From contig NZ_JACHMH010000001.1 of NCBI RefSeq assembly GCF_014204915.1, forward strand, positions 6,039,501 through 6,103,500: a stretch of DNA of 64,000 nt, read 5' to 3'. Origin of the DNA: Crossiella cryophila (GTDB lineage: Bacteria; Actinomycetota; Actinomycetes; Mycobacteriales; Pseudonocardiaceae). Below, in pieces: positions 432-58,292 of the stretch (positions are counted from its first letter, which is position 1; every line of letters starts with the position of its first letter). The notes beneath the pieces were generated by a model that saw only the letters and a program-made list of their open reading frames with translations, made no database searches and was not told the DNA's origin. A program made the position numbers and the translations under genes.

Positions 432-659
432 GGGCTTTGTTCTGGGGGCTGCGTTTCAGGGGCTTGCGTTCTCGGGGCTTGCGGTTTGGTCGGTTTGGCT
501 GGTTTGGCGTTGGGTCGGGTGGGTGCCAGGCTGGTGGGGTGGTGGTGGGTGCTCGTCGTGGTGGGGGTGCCCGTTGCTGAGGCGGGTCGTCGGTGGCATG
601 GGTTTCGGGCGATCTGGGTGATTTGGTGGCGCATAGGGCCTGGTCGCCGAGGATCTTTC

Positions 660-742
660 ACCCGGTCGGGTTAGAAGATCCAGACGGCGAGGCAACCAAA
701 ACGGGGGTTTGAGCGTTCCGCTAGTGAGCGGTGGCGGGGCGG
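660..742 (-). repeat. Dispersed ~90-bp repeat, copy 1 (divergent)
   Basis: Shares a core with copies at 35568-35663 and 57714-57811. Conserved blocks on the + strand include AAGATCCA, AGGCAACCAAAAC, GCGTTCCGC and CGGTGGCGG. Read on the minus strand, the core translates to RHRSLAERSNPRFGCLAVWIF and then a stop, against RHRSSAER..NGCFGCL.VWILSLDRV in the other copies. A hairpin CCGCT-CACT-AGCGG occupies the place of the CGTTCC/GGAACG hairpin of the other copies. No target-site duplication or transposase is visible. Origin and function unknown. Confidence 0.8.
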
Positions 743-33678: not shown

Positions 33679-34644
33679 TCACGCCGTCTGCCCAGGCCGA
33701 TCCACCACAGCCCGCCGCATGATCAGCACCGGCCCGAAGCTCTGCCCCTCCTGGTTGAACTGGTCGGCCTTGAGCGCCACACTGTGCTGCCCGAGGTACT
33801 CGTAGGTGCTGCGGTCGAACAACCATTCGACCCGCGTGTCGCCCACGACGAACCCGACCGCGACCGCGGGACGCCGCTTCACGTCCATCGTCTGGCCCAC
33901 CAGGTGCACGCCGGGAATCCGGGCCGCGGCCTGGTACAGCCCGACCAGCAACTCCGGCGGCGCGTTCCCCATCATCAGCAGCTCGTGAATCCGCTTGAAC
34001 ACCCGCCAATCCCGGGGCTGCTGATCGGGCTCGACCTCCCCGTAGAACTGGGCGAGCAGCTTGTCCGGGTCCGTGGGCAGTGTGCTGACCGGCGGAATGT
34101 TGCGGTCCGACTCATCCCAGCTCTGCCCTTCCCGCAGCTCACCCCCATCGTGCCGGGAAGCGCCCCGGACACTGGTGGCCGCCGGATACCAGTCCTCCCT
34201 CCGGTTGAACTCCGGCCCGGGAAGCACCCGGACCTGCCCGTCCTGGCCTATCTCGTGCCCCCGCCACTGATTGAAGCTGTCCACGTAGAGGTACTGATCG
34301 GGCCGAACCACCAACGGCCGGGCCCGCACCGCCTCCACCGCCTTGCTCAGCAACTCGGCCGCGTTCCGCACCGACGACCCCGCCACCTGCGAGTTCGACC
34401 CCACCGGCGCCGCCTCCCGAATGGCGGGAGCCACCAGCACCACCGCGGCCACCGCGGCCGCCACCACGAACGGAACCACCACCACCGGCCACCGCACCCA
34501 CGACCACCGGAACCGGGGCGTGGGGGAGTGCACCCGGCGCAGGAACTCCGCCCGCAACTCCGCGTGCCGCTGTTCGGACAATCCAGGATCCCCCGGCGGC
34601 GGCAACAGCCGGGTCAACTCAACCCGCTCCTGATCAAGGCTCAC
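33679..34644 (-). CDS. CU044_5270 family membrane-anchored protein
   Basis: 321 residues. A cytosolic N-terminus with DQERVELTRLLPPPGDPGL, one membrane helix (WPVVVVPFVVAAAVAAVVLV, about residues 52-72) and an extracytoplasmic domain (YLYVDSFNQWRG, GVHLVGQTMDVKRRPAVAVG). The family is found next to ECF sigma factors and probably acts as membrane sensor or anti-sigma partner. It overlaps the upstream sigma gene by 4 bp (ATGA), confirming coupled expression. No zinc-binding anti-sigma HxxxCxxC motif is present, so its regulatory mode is unknown. Confidence 0.88.
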   Translation of the reverse strand: MSLDQERVELTRLLPPPGDPGLSEQRHAELRAEFLRRVHSPTPRFRWSWVRWPVVVVPFVVAAAVAAVVLVAPAIREAAPVGSNSQVAGSSVRNAAELLSKAVEAVRARPLVVRPDQYLYVDSFNQWRGHEIGQDGQVRVLPGPEFNRREDWYPAATSVRGASRHDGGELREGQSWDESDRNIPPVSTLPTDPDKLLAQFYGEVEPDQQPRDWRVFKRIHELLMMGNAPPELLVGLYQAAARIPGVHLVGQTMDVKRRPAVAVGFVVGDTRVEWLFDRSTYEYLGQHSVALKADQFNQEGQSFGPVLIMRRAVVDRPGQTA

Positions 34645-35240
34645 AGTCCACTCTCCACAGGTGAAATTCCCAGGTCACCCGCTACCTGTCCGACCCGGCT
34701 CCCCGGTTCCGCCGCCCAGGCCCGCAACCGCGTACGGGCCCGCGAGAGCCGAGATCGCACCGTCCCCACCGGAATCCCCAACGCCGAGGCGGTCTCGGCA
34801 TAGTCGAGACCGGCCCACACGCACAACGTGAACACCTCCCGCTCAGCCCGCCGCAACTTCCCCAACGCCGCGGTAGCCCGAGCCACCAGCTCCCCATCAT
34901 GCAACCGCCCAACCACCTCCTCAGCGAAGTCCGGCACCACTTCCGGCGGCGGCAGTTTCCCCAGCGCGACCTGATGCCGCCGAGCCGCCCGAGTCACATT
35001 GCGCAAGACGTTGGTGGCGATCCCGAACAACCAGGGCCGCACCGAGTCGCCCTCCGGATCCAGCCGGGCCCGAGCCCGCCAAGCCTCCAGAAAGGTCAAC
35101 GACACCACATCCTCAGCCACCGACACATTGCCGGTGACCCGCGCCGCGTGCCGATGCACCACCCCCGCATGCTCATCGAACAACTCCGCAAAAGCGCCCG
35201 GATCACCCGCACGCAACCGAGCCCGAATGGATATCCCCAC
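34641..35240 (-). CDS. ECF sigma-70 family sigma factor
   Basis: 199 residues from GTG at 35240. Region 2: FAELFDEHAGVVHRHAARVTG, EDVVSLTFLEAWRAR, RPWLFGIATNVLRN; region 4: LRRAEREVFTLCVWAGLDYAE and IPVGTVRSRLSRARTRLR. The next gene, overlapping by 4 bp, encodes its likely membrane partner. The upstream region is the C-rich gene-free island 2, so the promoter should lie around 35250-35350. Reading further upstream gives low-complexity Gly/Trp sequence that is not family-like, supporting this start. Confidence 0.9.
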   Translation of the reverse strand: MGISIRARLRAGDPGAFAELFDEHAGVVHRHAARVTGNVSVAEDVVSLTFLEAWRARARLDPEGDSVRPWLFGIATNVLRNVTRAARRHQVALGKLPPPEVVPDFAEEVVGRLHDGELVARATAALGKLRRAEREVFTLCVWAGLDYAETASALGIPVGTVRSRLSRARTRLRAWAAEPGSRVGQVAGDLGISPVESGL

Positions 35241-36503
35241 ACCCCCTCCTGTCCGCTCCCCACCCCAGGTTCCCACCACCCCCAAAAAATCTCGCCCGCC
35301 CCCCAACCCCCACCACCTCCCCACCCAGAACCGCCCCTCCCACAAGGCCCCCACCCACCCCACCCTCAAACACCAAGCCCCTGAACAGCCAAAACACGGA
35401 CGTACGAATCACCGCCCCCGCCACCAAGCGCTTCAACCCAACATCCCCCAGGAACGCCAAAGCCCACGCCCCACCCCAGCCTCCGAACAGCGCACCTCCT
35501 GCTGTGACCCAGCCCACAATTCCACGGTAAACTGGCCCCCACACACGCCTGGGCCAACCCACTCCAGACCCGATCGAGTGACAAGATCCAAACATCAAGG
35601 CAACCAAAACAGCCGTTTCTGCGTTCCGCAGAGGAACGGTGGCGGCGGCGGACCCGGCACGGGCTCACGGCACACAGCAGCCCAGGCGACCGACAATGCA
35701 ACAGCCCCAGCGACGCAACGACCCGACCAAGAAGACACAGCACGCCCCGGCCAAGCACCAGCCCCGGTCCCAGCCCAGCGGCCCAGCCGCCAGCACCACC
35801 CGGCGCCCACCGCTACCCGGCCCCGGAGCGCGCCGACCACCAGGCACACCTGACCACCGAGCCCCGGTCAGCAGCCACGCCCGGCTGGCAGCCACGCCTG
35901 GCCAGCAGCCACGCCTGGCCAGCAGCGTGGCGCAGCCCAGCCGCGAACGCCGCCAGGTGCCAGGCACCAGGCATCGCCACCTGCCCCGCTCAAGCCCTCG
36001 CATGGTTGGGCAGGGGCAGCGCGCCGAGGAGTCCGGTGACGGGATCATCCAGAGAAGCGGTGCGGCATAGCCCGAGGGAAGCGGCGTAGCCCGGCGGTCG
36101 GCTGACCCGCCCGCCAGCCCCCAGCCCCCAGTGAGGTCCCGCTCCGCTCCACTCACCAGGCCAGGCTTACCGGGCAGTCGCGCATCGACGCGCGACAGAC
36201 GTTCCGCCCGCCCCCCGGCCCCCCGGCCCCCGCGATCGGCGGCCGGCGCTCCGCGAAACGCGCCCTGCGCCCGCCCGCCAAGCCAGCCGACCCTGCCACC
36301 CTCGCCGCCTGCACGGGGCGCTCCGGGCGGGCCCAGCAAGGGCGATCCGGGTGGCGCGTCGTGAAACGGCCGCCGCGCGAAACGGCTGCCGCCGCACGCA
36401 CCGCCAGCCGGCCGGCCGAGGCGGCAAGCAGGGTGGGTCGAGCGGGGCAGGTCGAGCGGGGCAAGCCGAAGCTGGGAGCCGCAGGTCACGATGGAAGCCG
36501 GGG
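35241..36503. other. Gene-free island 2
   Basis: About 1.26 kb without a convincing gene. The + strand is strongly C-rich and reading frames are low-complexity. It contains copy 2 of the dispersed repeat (35568-35663) and imperfect tandem units like CAGCAGCCACGCCTGGC (about 35870-35930). From about 36130 the sequence is a GC-only simple mix up to the methyltransferase start. The ECF sigma promoter is expected at the left edge and the methyltransferase promoter at the right. No RNA gene recognised. Confidence 0.6.
35568..35663 (-). repeat. Dispersed ~90-bp repeat, copy 2
   Basis: Nearly identical to copy 3 at 57714-57811 (opposite orientation) and related to copy 1 at 660-742. Over about 95 bases copies 2 and 3 differ at about six positions plus one single-base indel at the edge. 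On the minus strand it holds the hairpin CGTTCC-TCTGC-GGAACG, then (A/G)AAAC-GGCT-GTTTT, and an open core RHRSSAERRNGCFGCLDVW. It lies in the middle of a gene-free island. Confidence 0.9.
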
Positions 36504-37655
36504 ATGCGGGCCGGCCGGAACGGGACGATCATCGATCAGGTGGACCGGGAGAAGATCGACTATCGCGAGGTGCGGGAGACCAATCTCGTGACCCTCTATG
36601 GGCGGGCGTTGCACAGTCGGGAGCCGGAGCCGATTTTGCGGGATGAGGTGGCTGAGTGGCTGGTGGCGCGGATCGATTACGACTTCGACGGGTTGCGGGT
36701 TGCTCGGGCCTCGGCGATGGCGGTGGCGATGCGGGCCCGGCAGTTCGACGAGTGGGTGGGGACCTTCTTGCGGCGGTATCCGGATGCTGTGGTGTTGCAT
36801 CTGGCCTGTGGCATGGACAGTCGGTACCTGCGGCTGCGGCCGCCGTCCACTGTGGACTGGTTCGATGTGGACTTTCCGGATGTCGTCGAGTTGCGGCGCA
36901 GGCTCTTCCCGCTCGCGGCGTTCGCGGCTCCTGCGGCACCCGGGTCGCCTGACCGGTATGGGTCGCCTGGCGAGGCCGCGGCACCCGGTCGGCCTGCGTT
37001 GCTCGACCGGTCCGCGTCCCTCGACCGACCGGCCCCGTTTGAGTCGCTTGATCAACCTGCGGAACCCGGACAGCTCGCCGCACCCAGCTCGCCCAACTCA
37101 CCCACCGCACCCGCTTCGCCCACCGCGCCCAGGCAAGCCGACCAGGCCGGACCAACCACCCAACCCGGACCAAGCACCCAACCCGGACCAACCGGCCACG
37201 CCGAACCAAGCAGCCAACCCGGCTACCACCTGATCGGCGCCTCCGTCACCGACCCCGCCTGGTTCGACCAGATCCCCACCGGCCGCCCCGGCCTCATGGT
37301 CGCCGAGGGCCTGACCATGTACCTCACCGAAGCCGAACTGCTCCCACTCCTCCGCCGGGTCACCGGCCACTTCCCGCACGGCGAACTCCACTTCGACGCG
37401 ATGAACCGCCTCAGCACCCGGGTCGGCAACCTCAGCCCACTGTTGCGGCGGATGGGAGCGCGGTTCCGGTGGGGAGTGGACGACGCGCGGGAGCTGGAGC
37501 GGCTGGTGCCGGGGGTTCGGTTGGCTGAGGAGTTGGCGGCGGTGCGGTTGCGGGGGCTCAATCGGTTGCCGCACCTCTATCAACTGGTGGCGCGGTTCGC
37601 GGATCGGGTCGGGCCGTTGCGGCGGGTCAGTCGGTTGGTCCGGTATCGGTTCTGA
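36504..37655 (+). CDS. LCM-type class I methyltransferase with low-complexity insertion
   Basis: 383 residues from ATG at 36504. Matches the leucine-carboxyl/PPM1-like methyltransferase family: the N-terminal ALHSREPEPILRDEVAEWL, the SAM loop VVLHLACGMDSRYLRL, the acidic strand WFDVDFPDVVELRRRLFP, and GLMVAEGLTMYLTEAEL near the C-terminus. Typical members have about 270 residues. Here roughly 100 residues rich in Pro, Ala, Ser, Gln and Asp (about residues 140-240, bases 36920-37225) sit between RRRLFP and YHLIGASVTDPAWFD, within the Rossmann fold. Both flanks remain in frame, so the enzyme may be functional. Substrate unknown. Confidence 0.82.
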   Translation: MRAGRNGTIIDQVDREKIDYREVRETNLVTLYGRALHSREPEPILRDEVAEWLVARIDYDFDGLRVARASAMAVAMRARQFDEWVGTFLRRYPDAVVLHLACGMDSRYLRLRPPSTVDWFDVDFPDVVELRRRLFPLAAFAAPAAPGSPDRYGSPGEAAAPGRPALLDRSASLDRPAPFESLDQPAEPGQLAAPSSPNSPTAPASPTAPRQADQAGPTTQPGPSTQPGPTGHAEPSSQPGYHLIGASVTDPAWFDQIPTGRPGLMVAEGLTMYLTEAELLPLLRRVTGHFPHGELHFDAMNRLSTRVGNLSPLLRRMGARFRWGVDDARELERLVPGVRLAEELAAVRLRGLNRLPHLYQLVARFADRVGPLRRVSRLVRYRF

Positions 37656-54901: not shown

Positions 54902-55879
54902 TTAACGGGTGATCGGCAGCGTGGCGGGCAGACCAAAGGCGGTGATCAGCTTCGCCTCGAAGGTGACCACCTCGGCGACCAGCCCGTCCTCCACCCGCAG
55001 CACGTCAAGGGCGACCGCGGTGTACTCGGTGGCGCCGGGCTTGAGCACGTAGTTGGCCAGCGCGGGCTGCCGGTTGACCCAGGTGGGCAACGCGGTCCAC
55101 TGGCCCCAGGAGTCGGCGCCGCCGGGCATGACGGCGCTCCACTGGCTGATGAGTTCCTCCCGGCCGCTGGCGAAGAACGGGTGCGGCGGCATCGTGTGCA
55201 GCGCGTCGGCGTGCAGGAGTTCGGCCATCGCGGCCATGTCGGCGGATTCGGTGGCGGCGATGAAGCGGGCCAGGATGTCGCGTTCCTCGGCGGAGGGTTC
55301 GGCTGGCACGGTCCAGTCCGCGCGGCGCCGGGGCAGGTGTTCCTTGAGGGTGGCGCGGGCGCGCTGCAGGGCGCTGTTGGCCGAGGCGACGGTGGTGTCC
55401 AGGGCCTTGGCGGTCTCGGCGGCGGCCCAGCCGAGCACGTCCCGCAGGATCAGCGCCGCCCGCTGGCGGGGCGGCAGGTGCTGGAGCGCGGTGAGGTAGG
55501 CCAGCTCGATGGTCTCCCGCGCCACCACCACGGCGTCGGGTTCGTCCGCGGCGGGCGCGGCCAGCTCCAGGAGCTGATCCGGGTAGGGCTGGAGCCAGCT
55601 CACCTCACTGGTGGTGGCCGTCTCCGGACCGGCCACCGCGGTCTGCTGCTGAGCTGGCCGCTTGGCGATGGCGTCCAGGGTCGCGTTGGTGGCGATCTTG
55701 TACAGCCAGGCCCGCAAGGTGGCCCGCCCCTGGTAGGTCTCCCGGCGGTGCCAGGCCCGCAGGAAGGTCTCCTGCACGAGGTCCTCGGACTCCTCGAAGG
55801 AGCCGACCATCCGGTAGCAGTGCACCCGCAGCTCGTGCCGGTGCCGTTCGACGAGCTGCCCGAAGTCCTGCTCGTTCAT
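54902..55879 (-). CDS. ECF sigma factor with SnoaL-like C-terminus (SigG-type)
   Basis: 325 residues from ATG at 55879 (MNEQDFGQLVERHRHEL). Region 2: HCYRMVGSFEESEDLVQETFLRAWHRRE, LRAWLYKIATNATLDAI; region 4: LQHLPPRQRAALILRDVLGWAAAETAKALDTTVASANSALQRARATL. The C-terminal ~120 residues are an NTF2/SnoaL-like domain (ERDILARFIAATESADMAAMAELL). This fits the SigG-type (ECF56-like) group, which is self-contained without an anti-sigma gene. Monocistronic by context. Confidence 0.92.
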   Translation of the reverse strand: MNEQDFGQLVERHRHELRVHCYRMVGSFEESEDLVQETFLRAWHRRETYQGRATLRAWLYKIATNATLDAIAKRPAQQQTAVAGPETATTSEVSWLQPYPDQLLELAAPAADEPDAVVVARETIELAYLTALQHLPPRQRAALILRDVLGWAAAETAKALDTTVASANSALQRARATLKEHLPRRRADWTVPAEPSAEERDILARFIAATESADMAAMAELLHADALHTMPPHPFFASGREELISQWSAVMPGGADSWGQWTALPTWVNRQPALANYVLKPGATEYTAVALDVLRVEDGLVAEVVTFEAKLITAFGLPATLPITR

Positions 55880-56033
55880 GGTGGCCACGACGTCCACAAC
55901 GCCTCCCCGTTACGTGCGCCGCTTGTCCGGCGCGTCACCACCTATGACCGGCACACGCCACAAAAGTCATCTCTTCGCAGCTCAACCCCGGTACGACCCG
56001 CCCCAAGCCTGGTCACCGCCCGACCGGCTGTGC

Positions 56034-56882: not shown

Positions 56883-58292
56883 GCGCGCTCCGTGACGGTG
56901 TTCTCGCTGGTCACGACGCCAGTGTGCACTGTTGGCGGCGGGTGGTGGGTGGCGGGCGGCGGTGTCAGACCGGCGTGGTGGCTGTTCGCCCGGCGGCCCG
57001 CGCATCGTCCGCGCATCGCCTCGCGAGGGCCGTCCGCGATGGCTGTGCTTGGTGGCTGTCCGCAGTGGACGGTGGTTGTTCGCGATGGCTGGCCTCAGCG
57101 CGGATTCAGCGCGGCCTCAGCCGGGCGGCGGCGGGGAGCGTCAGCCGGGGGCGCTACGCGGGGGCGCGGGGCGCTGCGAGGTGCGGCGGGTCCGGGCGCG
57201 GGGAGTCTCAGTCTCAGAGGCAGGGCGGGGCAACCGCGGGGCGGAGGGAGGGAACCTGGGCGGGGCGCTGGGGTTGGCGAGCCGTCGCCTCAACCTGGCC
57301 GACCCGGTCGTTGGCCGGTCCCAGCCCCTGCCGCACGGTCGGGCAGCCTGGTCGGGCAAGCGCCAGAGGCGCGGGCGTTCCGGTGCCGCTTCGCTGCTTC
57401 CACCTCAGCGCCTGCCCAGCACCCGGCAGGGTCCTTGCCAGCCTTGCCGCGGCCGGGCCTGCAGTTGGAGCGTGCCTGCCCCCAGTCCGCGATCGCTGCC
57501 CCGACCGGGCTGGCAGACCTACTCGGGCCGGGGGCCTGCCGGGGCCGGGGCCGAGCCCATTGCCGATGGGCCGAGTCGCTTTGCCCGAGCCGCGGGCCCT
57601 GGCCGCTTGCCCTCCGCGCGCGGGCGCTGCCTCTTACCCTTGCTCCTACCTCTGGCCACTGGCGACCGGCCGTTGCCTCCGGTCGTGGCTGGAGCCTGTC
57701 GCGTCCTGCTCCGTCCCGTGCCGGGGTCCGCCGCCGCCACCGTTCCTCTGCGGAACGCAAAAACGGCTGTTTTGGTTGCCTTGGCGTTTGGATCTTGTCG
57801 CTCGATCGGGTTGTTCGCGATCCGGCGCGCCTGTCCGACTATCCGCGACCTAGCGCACCTTACCGCCTCAACCAGCCGAAACCTGCCAGTCCGCCGCACT
57901 TATCCACACCCACCGCATCCCGGGCCTCCACCGAAAGTGTGCCGAACCCTCGCAGAGTCGAATCCCAGCAGCACAGCCGAAGCGCGGCCGAACCGAGAAC
58001 GCTCGCCGCGCACCCCAGCCGCGCCTAACCGCACCCCGCAACCGCGCAACCCAACCACTCAACCCAGCTGCGAAACCGCGCCACGCCAGCCCAGGCAGCA
58101 CCGCCCCGCGCCCGCGCCACACCGCACCGGGCGAGCCGGGCTGGGCCGGACCACGCCAGGCCGGAACCCAACGGCTCAGGCCACACCCGCGCCCCAAGCC
58201 CCGCCGCCAGTCAGCCACTGACCACCAGTCACCCAGCCACCAACCAGCCGCCCATCAACCCCACCCAACAACCCCCACCCCGCAAGCCCTGC
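56883..58292. other. Gene-free island 3
   Basis: About 1.4 kb without a convincing gene. Left of the repeat copy (57714-57811) the + strand is G-rich; right of it, it turns C-rich with many CCGCAACCGC/CACCCAG-like words. All frames give low-complexity Arg/Ala/Pro/Gly sequence. The composition switch at the repeat is sharp. It lies between the sucrase-ferredoxin promoter and the 3' end of the crotonase gene. No RNA gene recognised. Confidence 0.6.
57714..57811 (+). repeat. Dispersed ~90-bp repeat, copy 3
   Basis: Reference copy in plus orientation. Order: GTGCCGGGGTCCGCC, hairpin CGTTCC-TCTGC-GGAACG, then AAAAC-GGCT-GTTTT, GGTTGCCTTGGCGTTTGG, ATCTTGTCGCTCGATCGGG. Translated core RHRSSAERKNGCFGCLGVW. 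Near-identical to copy 2 (35568-35663, opposite strand) and related to copy 1 (660-742). It marks the point where island 3 changes from G-rich to C-rich on the plus strand. Confidence 0.92.

Follow-up and report, generated by a model that had tools for sequence, protein, structure and literature searches.

A dispersed intergenic repeat of Crossiella that looks like a protein-binding DNA module beside repeat-rich, gene-free islands

Introduction

Intergenic DNA in bacteria is usually compact, and the dispersed repeats that it carries are usually ascribed to transposon debris. The stretch of the Crossiella cryophila chromosome analysed here (64 kb, called the window below) raises the question of what else such a repeat may be, as it contains three gene-free islands, each with one copy of the same short sequence. 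The first-pass annotation of this DNA offered three guesses: a non-autonomous mobile unit, a structured RNA or a chromosome-organisation site. We followed the repeat through the C. cryophila genome (G000), four other Crossiella genomes (G001–G004) and wider sets of genomes. Judged by comparison of sequences, it does not look like an RNA gene but like a dispersed DNA module that binds a protein and is inherited mostly vertically.

Results

Three copies in three gene-free islands

Profile matches confirmed the three-copy repeat at 659–742 (minus strand), 35568–35652 (minus) and 57727–57811 (plus), at most ∼13 bases from the places given at first, with scores of 77.5, 89.0 and 88.6 bits respectively. 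Two copies had been called near-identical, and the 35.6-kb copy indeed matches the 57.7-kb query copy with 95% identity over 97 query bases; for the 0.7-kb copy the value is 78% over 85 bases. The claim of shared sequence blocks stood in part: AGGCAACCAAAAC and GCGTTCCGC occur in all three copies, but AAGATCCAAAC is imperfect by one base in the 0.7-kb copy. In the 10.06-Mb genome, GGAACGC-N0–12-GTTTTGGTTGCC had 10 matches vs none for a reversed-pattern control, and GCAACC-N15-GCGTTC had 22 vs one in its control; with counts so far above the controls, the repeat is beyond chance.

Each copy lies within a gene-free island of 1.20–1.46 kb, slightly longer than the 1.1–1.4 kb first claimed, and the largest other gap in the window is 507 bp. 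A simple gene finder gave gaps of 3.6 and 2.4 kb at the second and third islands, where the bounds were corrected by Pfam matches and relatives; the finder is crude, so island lengths derived from it are upper estimates. The island of copy 1 (432–1893) is flanked by a predicted gene of 246 aa and a DUF6493 gene of 690 aa. Its element has the core at ∼691–719, belongs to a subfamily with CTCACTA ahead of GCGGAACGC, and has an ortholog at G001:C33:295612 with identical neighbours on both sides. Copy 2 (core ∼35599–35627) lies in an island at approximately 35295–36496, bordered by an ECF-type sigma gene (minus) and an LCM methyltransferase gene (plus). The island of copy 3 (57006–58292) is bordered by a Suc_Fer-like gene and an enoyl-CoA hydratase gene, both on the minus strand; the element has its core at ∼57752–57780, orthologs at G002:4779372 and G004:C67:75294, and a DnaA-box-like match, TTATCCACA, in its 3′ flank (57900–57908, plus).

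Strand skew of the islands does not consistently match element orientation, and was rejected as a marker of element direction. The 160 bp 5′ of the element have a T-over-A skew on the forward strand in all five Crossiella genomes, weak in G003. In G000 the genes bordering island 2 (34641–35369 and 36500–37655) score poorly for typical codons and their coding strands are rich in G and T, as if from transcription-linked mutation bias; by eye, the stretch beside this junction is skewed in G001 as in G000, and normal-looking in G002 and G004. Within the methyltransferase gene of G000, positions 36921–37214 form an in-frame low-complexity stretch of 294 bp (98 codons) that is not present in G001, G002 or G004.

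Distribution of the family

A 16-copy profile (E up to 0.01) placed the family at 73 sites in all five Crossiella genomes: 23 in G000, 14 each in G001, G002 and G004, and eight in G003. The window copies are thus part of a larger set, with lineage-specific subfamilies. The suggested avoidance of coding DNA also held: among the 72 placed copies (for G004:C17:190–259 no locus was retrieved), none lies in a predicted gene scoring at least 40, three overlap a weak predicted frame, and no element contains a predicted gene. Four pairs of G000 copies are 8.2–8.6 kb apart (4018/4026, 5994/6003, 6031/6040 and 8463/8472 kb), with similar spacings in G001, G002 and G004; outside those four pairs, no G000 copies are closer than ∼22 kb.

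Beyond the genus, a profile search of 390 genomes of the same taxonomic family gave only matches of 18–24 bits. When the pattern was counted in 397 genomes of the order, G000 had 26 matches (control 2) and no other genome more than eight. One of these others, G018 (genus g15), has eight matches of GCGSAACG-N17-GTTSC vs one in the control, and may represent another genus with the site. A scan of named genomes returned 25 stretches, four of them outside Crossiella (Planctomycetaceae, Pararhodobacter, Alphaproteobacteria and Rhodopirellula); these look like chance, one scoring 19.8 bits and three having no profile match at E up to 1. Carriage by phages was likewise set aside: 33 viral contigs match the short pattern, and nine of the 33 loci have a profile match (E up to 1), none above 15.7 bits.

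Anatomy and conservation of the core

Read 5′ to 3′, the element consists of GCCGCC-rich DNA, a stem region of CCGC, pyrimidine loop and GCGG, then GCGGAACGC, 15 bp and GGTTGC, followed by a loosely conserved GTNTGGATCTTG and, in many copies, by CGATCGGGTGA. The core, GCGGAACGC-N15-GGTTGC, has all 15 letters in 66 of the 72 copies, and a gap of 15 bp was the best fit in 71 of them when gaps of 10–20 were tried. The sequence of the gap varies, being AAAAC..GTTTT, TTTTC..GAAAA or neither. As DNA, the core is therefore a bipartite site, GSAAC-N18-GTTSC, with fixed spacing. At one orthologous locus, present in four genomes, the core reads GCGCAACG[CT] and GGTTCC, with the half-site G and C swapped. 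A protein-coding reading of the element was rejected, as subfamilies differ by single-base length changes 5′ of the core.

Orthologous pairs were found through the core-containing profile, from which decayed copies may escape, so that the core rate is biased down: for 14 pairs detected between G000 and G001, substitutions numbered 1/210 in the core and 21/210 in the spacer. Over windows of 95–100 bp, in which indels inflate the mismatches, 23% of the 3′ flank and 39% of the 5′ flank differed in the same pairs. Nine G000–G002 pairs gave 1/135 for the core and ∼50% for the flanks (0.51 at most), and the one G000–G003 pair gave 0/15; this copy, common to G000 and the distant G003, has kept its relative orientation. 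Low substitution in the core against high substitution in the flanks suggests that selection acts on the core place by place. Gene conversion among copies could add to this pattern, yet would not spare the core alone. For many copies the neighbours on both sides are conserved between species. Their functions are mixed: the 40 neighbouring proteins inspected, among them PadR, RPE65-type, BTAD and LuxR regulators, PBP, P450, dehydrogenases and transporters, have no function in common, and we dropped a shared neighbour function as an explanation.

A related element in a second genus

Four weak profile matches in genus g8 align over 133 bp and are real relatives of the Crossiella element. A profile of these four matches 21 g8 genomes (E up to 0.001), with one to seven copies per genome, which are lower bounds since eight candidates per genome were scored; it also gave one match, of 24.8 bits, in a single genome of a third genus. 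Weak matches of the g8 profile (23–29 bits) occur in Crossiella outside the known family, at G000:7802936, G000:8136673, G002:6310357, G004:C13:45733 and G001:C41:53199.

With the gap held at 15 bp, 11 of 24 g8 loci match GCGGAACGA/GGTTCC in all 15 letters, the others in 12–14. The half-sites are mostly GGAAC and GTTCC, making the g8 core a near-palindrome. At one locus (L295) the best core match is on the other strand, and the repeat and box tests used the remaining 23, none of which overlaps a gene scoring at least 25. Behind the core lie two inverted DnaA-box-like motifs whose starts are 52–54 bp apart, box 1 in 22 of the 23 copies and box 2 in all 23. The search for these boxes fixed TCCACA and left only three letters free; those letters were CTG, CTA, TTG, TTA or GTA in box 1, and TTG or TTA in box 2.

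Repeat polarity and turnover of the islands

The repeats within the islands are short, degenerate and tandem, and lie mainly on the 5′ side of the element. With orthologous copies counted apart, tandem repeats cover 28.1% of 40,627 bp of 5′ flank and 10.9% of 25,962 bp of 3′ flank, vs 8.2% of 37,040 bp in 104 control gaps. An equal-length comparison took in the 62 of 72 Crossiella copies with enough island on both sides. In G000 the 5′ side led at 16 sites and the 3′ side at five (two-sided sign p 0.027); the counts were 6 vs 3 in G001, 6 vs 2 in G002, 4 vs 1 in G003 and 7 vs 0 in G004, small numbers that are not significant alone in G002 (p 0.29) and G003 (p 0.38). Repeats in g8 also favour the 5′ side (13 vs 4, p 0.049, 23 copies). 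Fork direction is ruled out as the cause of this polarity by the 5′ bias in both copy orientations, G000 copies that run with the replication fork giving 9 vs 3 and those against it 7 vs 2.

Some islands differ between relatives. Where G000 has the 1.2-kb island of copy 2 (window 35.3–36.5 kb), G001 has 11 bp, and both island and element are absent from G002 and G004 as well. At the G000 copy at genome position 5,752,622, the junction measures 1.95 kb in G000 vs ∼120 bp without the element in G002, G003 and G004, and holds 3.0 kb of different DNA in G001; by eye, the G000 island is similar to old intergenic DNA in its outer part. Conversely, a copy with an island of ∼510 bp is found at G002:2810485 and G004:C15:102002, but G000 and G001 have 13 and 28 bp respectively between the predicted gene ends, and no copy. 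At least some islands are thus younger than the surrounding genes. The two G000 copies at variable junctions have in common only ∼205 bp (35494–35695 in the window). The 797 bp of island DNA at 35700–36496 has no clear source in the five Crossiella genomes, where the best match is 79% over 81 bp in G000; with matches this short and weak, copying of the island from elsewhere was set aside.

Discussion

Alternative explanations

Of the first guesses, a structured non-coding RNA family, with the repeat as its conserved stem-loops, is highly improbable. Some folding signal does exist: in the 70 of 72 copies used for stem tests (two with a core score below 13/15 were left out), the CCGC/pyrimidine loop/GCGG region pairs above shuffles in 61, outside G003 most Crossiella copies have a self-complementary spacer, and the best of seven folded strands reached z −2.0. 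Most folds, however, were near shuffles, copy 3 giving z 1.18 on the plus strand and −0.28 on the minus strand; the 3′ stem was found in 41 of 70 copies vs 34 and 29 in controls, and was dropped as a general feature; and in six of the seven G003 copies the spacer dyad keeps at most three of six pairs. The window had no Rfam match at gathering scores, and a relaxed search of copy 3 gave one sub-threshold match, to P37, that lies next to the element (E 0.74). Constant spacing of 15 bp with no constant pairing suggests a DNA site, not an RNA. The guess of a mobile unit fared better. A non-autonomous unit of ∼100–250 bp, moved by an enzyme coded elsewhere and inserting between genes, with surroundings that then swell by repeat growth, would fit the junctions that lack island and element in relatives (copy 2 in G001, G002 and G004; 5,752,622 in G002, G003 and G004), the copy of G002 and G004 missing in G000 and G001, the ∼205 bp shared by two recent, near-identical copies, and the lineage-specific subfamilies. 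Yet the copy 2 junction, compared base by base, showed neither terminal repeats nor a target duplication (that at 5,752,622 is too diverged to judge), none of the 72 elements contains a predicted gene, and the core stays fixed at detected orthologous sites while the flanks change, the copy shared with distant G003 included. We regard mobility of this kind as doubtful, yet as a close rival of the promoter reading set out below.

The g8 boxes bring in a different candidate, a DnaA-linked nucleoprotein hub like datA, DARS or a DnaA-box cluster, in which a dimeric protein would sit on GSAAC-N18-GTTSC, and DnaA, in g8, on the two adjoining inverted boxes; the copies would serve to titrate DnaA, to process it, or to organise the replication-distal part of the chromosome, and the boxes would have been lost or degraded in Crossiella. 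It would account for the two boxes in nearly all 23 g8 copies and for a core that is preserved site by site without a common neighbour function. The copies are also far from dnaA: if the chromosomes are circular, all 23 G000 copies are more than 2.3 Mb away, and 13 of 14 in G002 and seven of eight in G003 more than 2.1 Mb, although the threshold was picked after the data had been seen and a terminus-side bias is usual for accessory DNA too. One exceptional G002 copy (C1:9166560–9166638, L116) lies ∼5 kb from dnaA across the record start. Loose DnaA boxes are rare near the Crossiella copies, with five in 3′ flanks against 0.94 expected, two of these five at one orthologous site, and none in 5′ flanks; nor is copy orientation consistent relative to replication. 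The known sites are, like the element, intergenic and non-coding, and g8 has inverted DnaA-box-like motifs, but the element differs in its many dispersed copies, its extra bipartite site and its mostly missing boxes in Crossiella. A DnaA hub seems rather unlikely to us, but it too is a close rival of the promoter reading, and a broader role in chromosome organisation or other DNA binding may apply.

A putative ECF-type promoter

The reading as a DNA site for a protein rests on fixed spacing around a free spacer, a position at junctions of mixed function, a core better kept than its flanks, and the lack of a kept RNA fold. Actinobacterial ECF promoters have G[GC]AAC and CGTT boxes. Our preferred reading, which we put forward tentatively, is that the core is an ECF-type promoter on the reverse strand, firing into the island and used by one sigma factor or activator. 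The −35 would be G[GC]AAC, followed by 17 bp and a −10 of CGTT[CG]C; at copy 3, the putative promoter (57752–57780, minus) has GCAAC, a 17-bp spacer and CGTT, and points toward lower coordinates. The variant locus reads GGAACC and CGTTGC on this strand in place of the usual boxes, both acceptable as ECF boxes. The constant two-box spacing falls within the 16–17-bp range of ECF promoters; a Streptomyces ECF sigma factor uses spacers of 16 or 17 bp, as summarized in PMC6767563.

The transcript would be mostly non-coding, and its transcription through the island (or a nucleoprotein complex on the core) would promote slippage and duplication and so give rise to the repeats. Tandem repeats do lie on the side that the putative promoter would transcribe, in G000 for both fork directions and again in g8. 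The T-over-A skew of the 160 bp 5′ of the element also speaks for this reading. In g8 the two inverted boxes stand just upstream of the putative −35, for which reason we propose that DnaA would regulate the promoter there. The factor concerned would seldom, if ever, bind elsewhere, as every one of the 22 genome matches of GCAACC-N15-GCGTTC belongs to the family. A candidate cognate factor, from a single case, is encoded beside copy 3, where an ECF-type sigma gene with sigma-70 regions 2/4 and a SnoaL domain (54902–55897, minus) lies 1.8 kb away on the 5′ side, in the direction in which the putative promoter reads. It is one gene away in G000, beyond the Suc_Fer-like gene; G002 and G004 have a relative two predicted genes from the copy, with side and relative direction unchanged.

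Against a promoter stands the lack of a common downstream gene: the first gene on the 5′ side (score at least 40) has its start toward the element in 29 of 70 copies and its end in 41. The other sigma gene by a window copy (34641–35369) also counts against it, since G001, G002 and G004 have kept this gene but lack the element, and the near-palindromic g8 core would serve a dimeric protein just as well. Promoters are not usually under selection as strict as that on the nine letters around the −10. ECF promoters such as those of sigma-E of Streptomyces coelicolor resemble the core in having two short boxes with fixed 16–17-bp spacing and G[GC]AAC and CGTT letters; unlike them, the element's copies face no common gene, its exact matches all belong to one family, and conservation extends past the boxes. 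Extended to its full reach, the promoter reading would describe a nearly closed set of DnaA-linked promoter-like sites with one dedicated factor, perhaps the sigma beside copy 3, firing into islands that they make grow as minisatellites; this would be a replication-coupled system, common to two genera, by which empty gene junctions become transcribed domains of repeats. This extended version strikes us as improbable.

Relation to known repeat classes

The element is not described in Rfam or in the literature found by our searches, which covered abstract-level listings. Dispersed intergenic sites are of a known kind. Within the scope of these searches, however, we met no description of a family that combines a nearly closed set of sites with a core conserved place by place and a polar island of repeats. 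The preserved core at orthologous places, the bipartite protein-site anatomy and the position at the edge of fast-changing repeat DNA contrast with transposon debris. If the binder were found, two questions would become testable: what keeps large actinobacterial chromosomes from losing their gene-free islands, and whether minisatellites can be driven to grow in one direction by a fixed DNA site.

REP and REPIN sequences with their RAYT transposases are, like the element, dispersed, intergenic and partly palindromic; as outlined in the sources cited, they usually exceed 100 copies per genome (PMC2817692) and carry a GTAG or CGTC tag at one end (PMC3733652). By contrast, the element has 23 copies in G000, a core preserved at orthologous places, and no invariant GTAG or CGTC columns in its alignments. 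MIRU-VNTR and other bacterial minisatellites consist of short tandem repeats arrayed between genes, with differences from strain to strain. The islands share with them such arrays; unlike in minisatellites, the repeat units differ between Crossiella islands, and only a single site, at one edge, stays constant.
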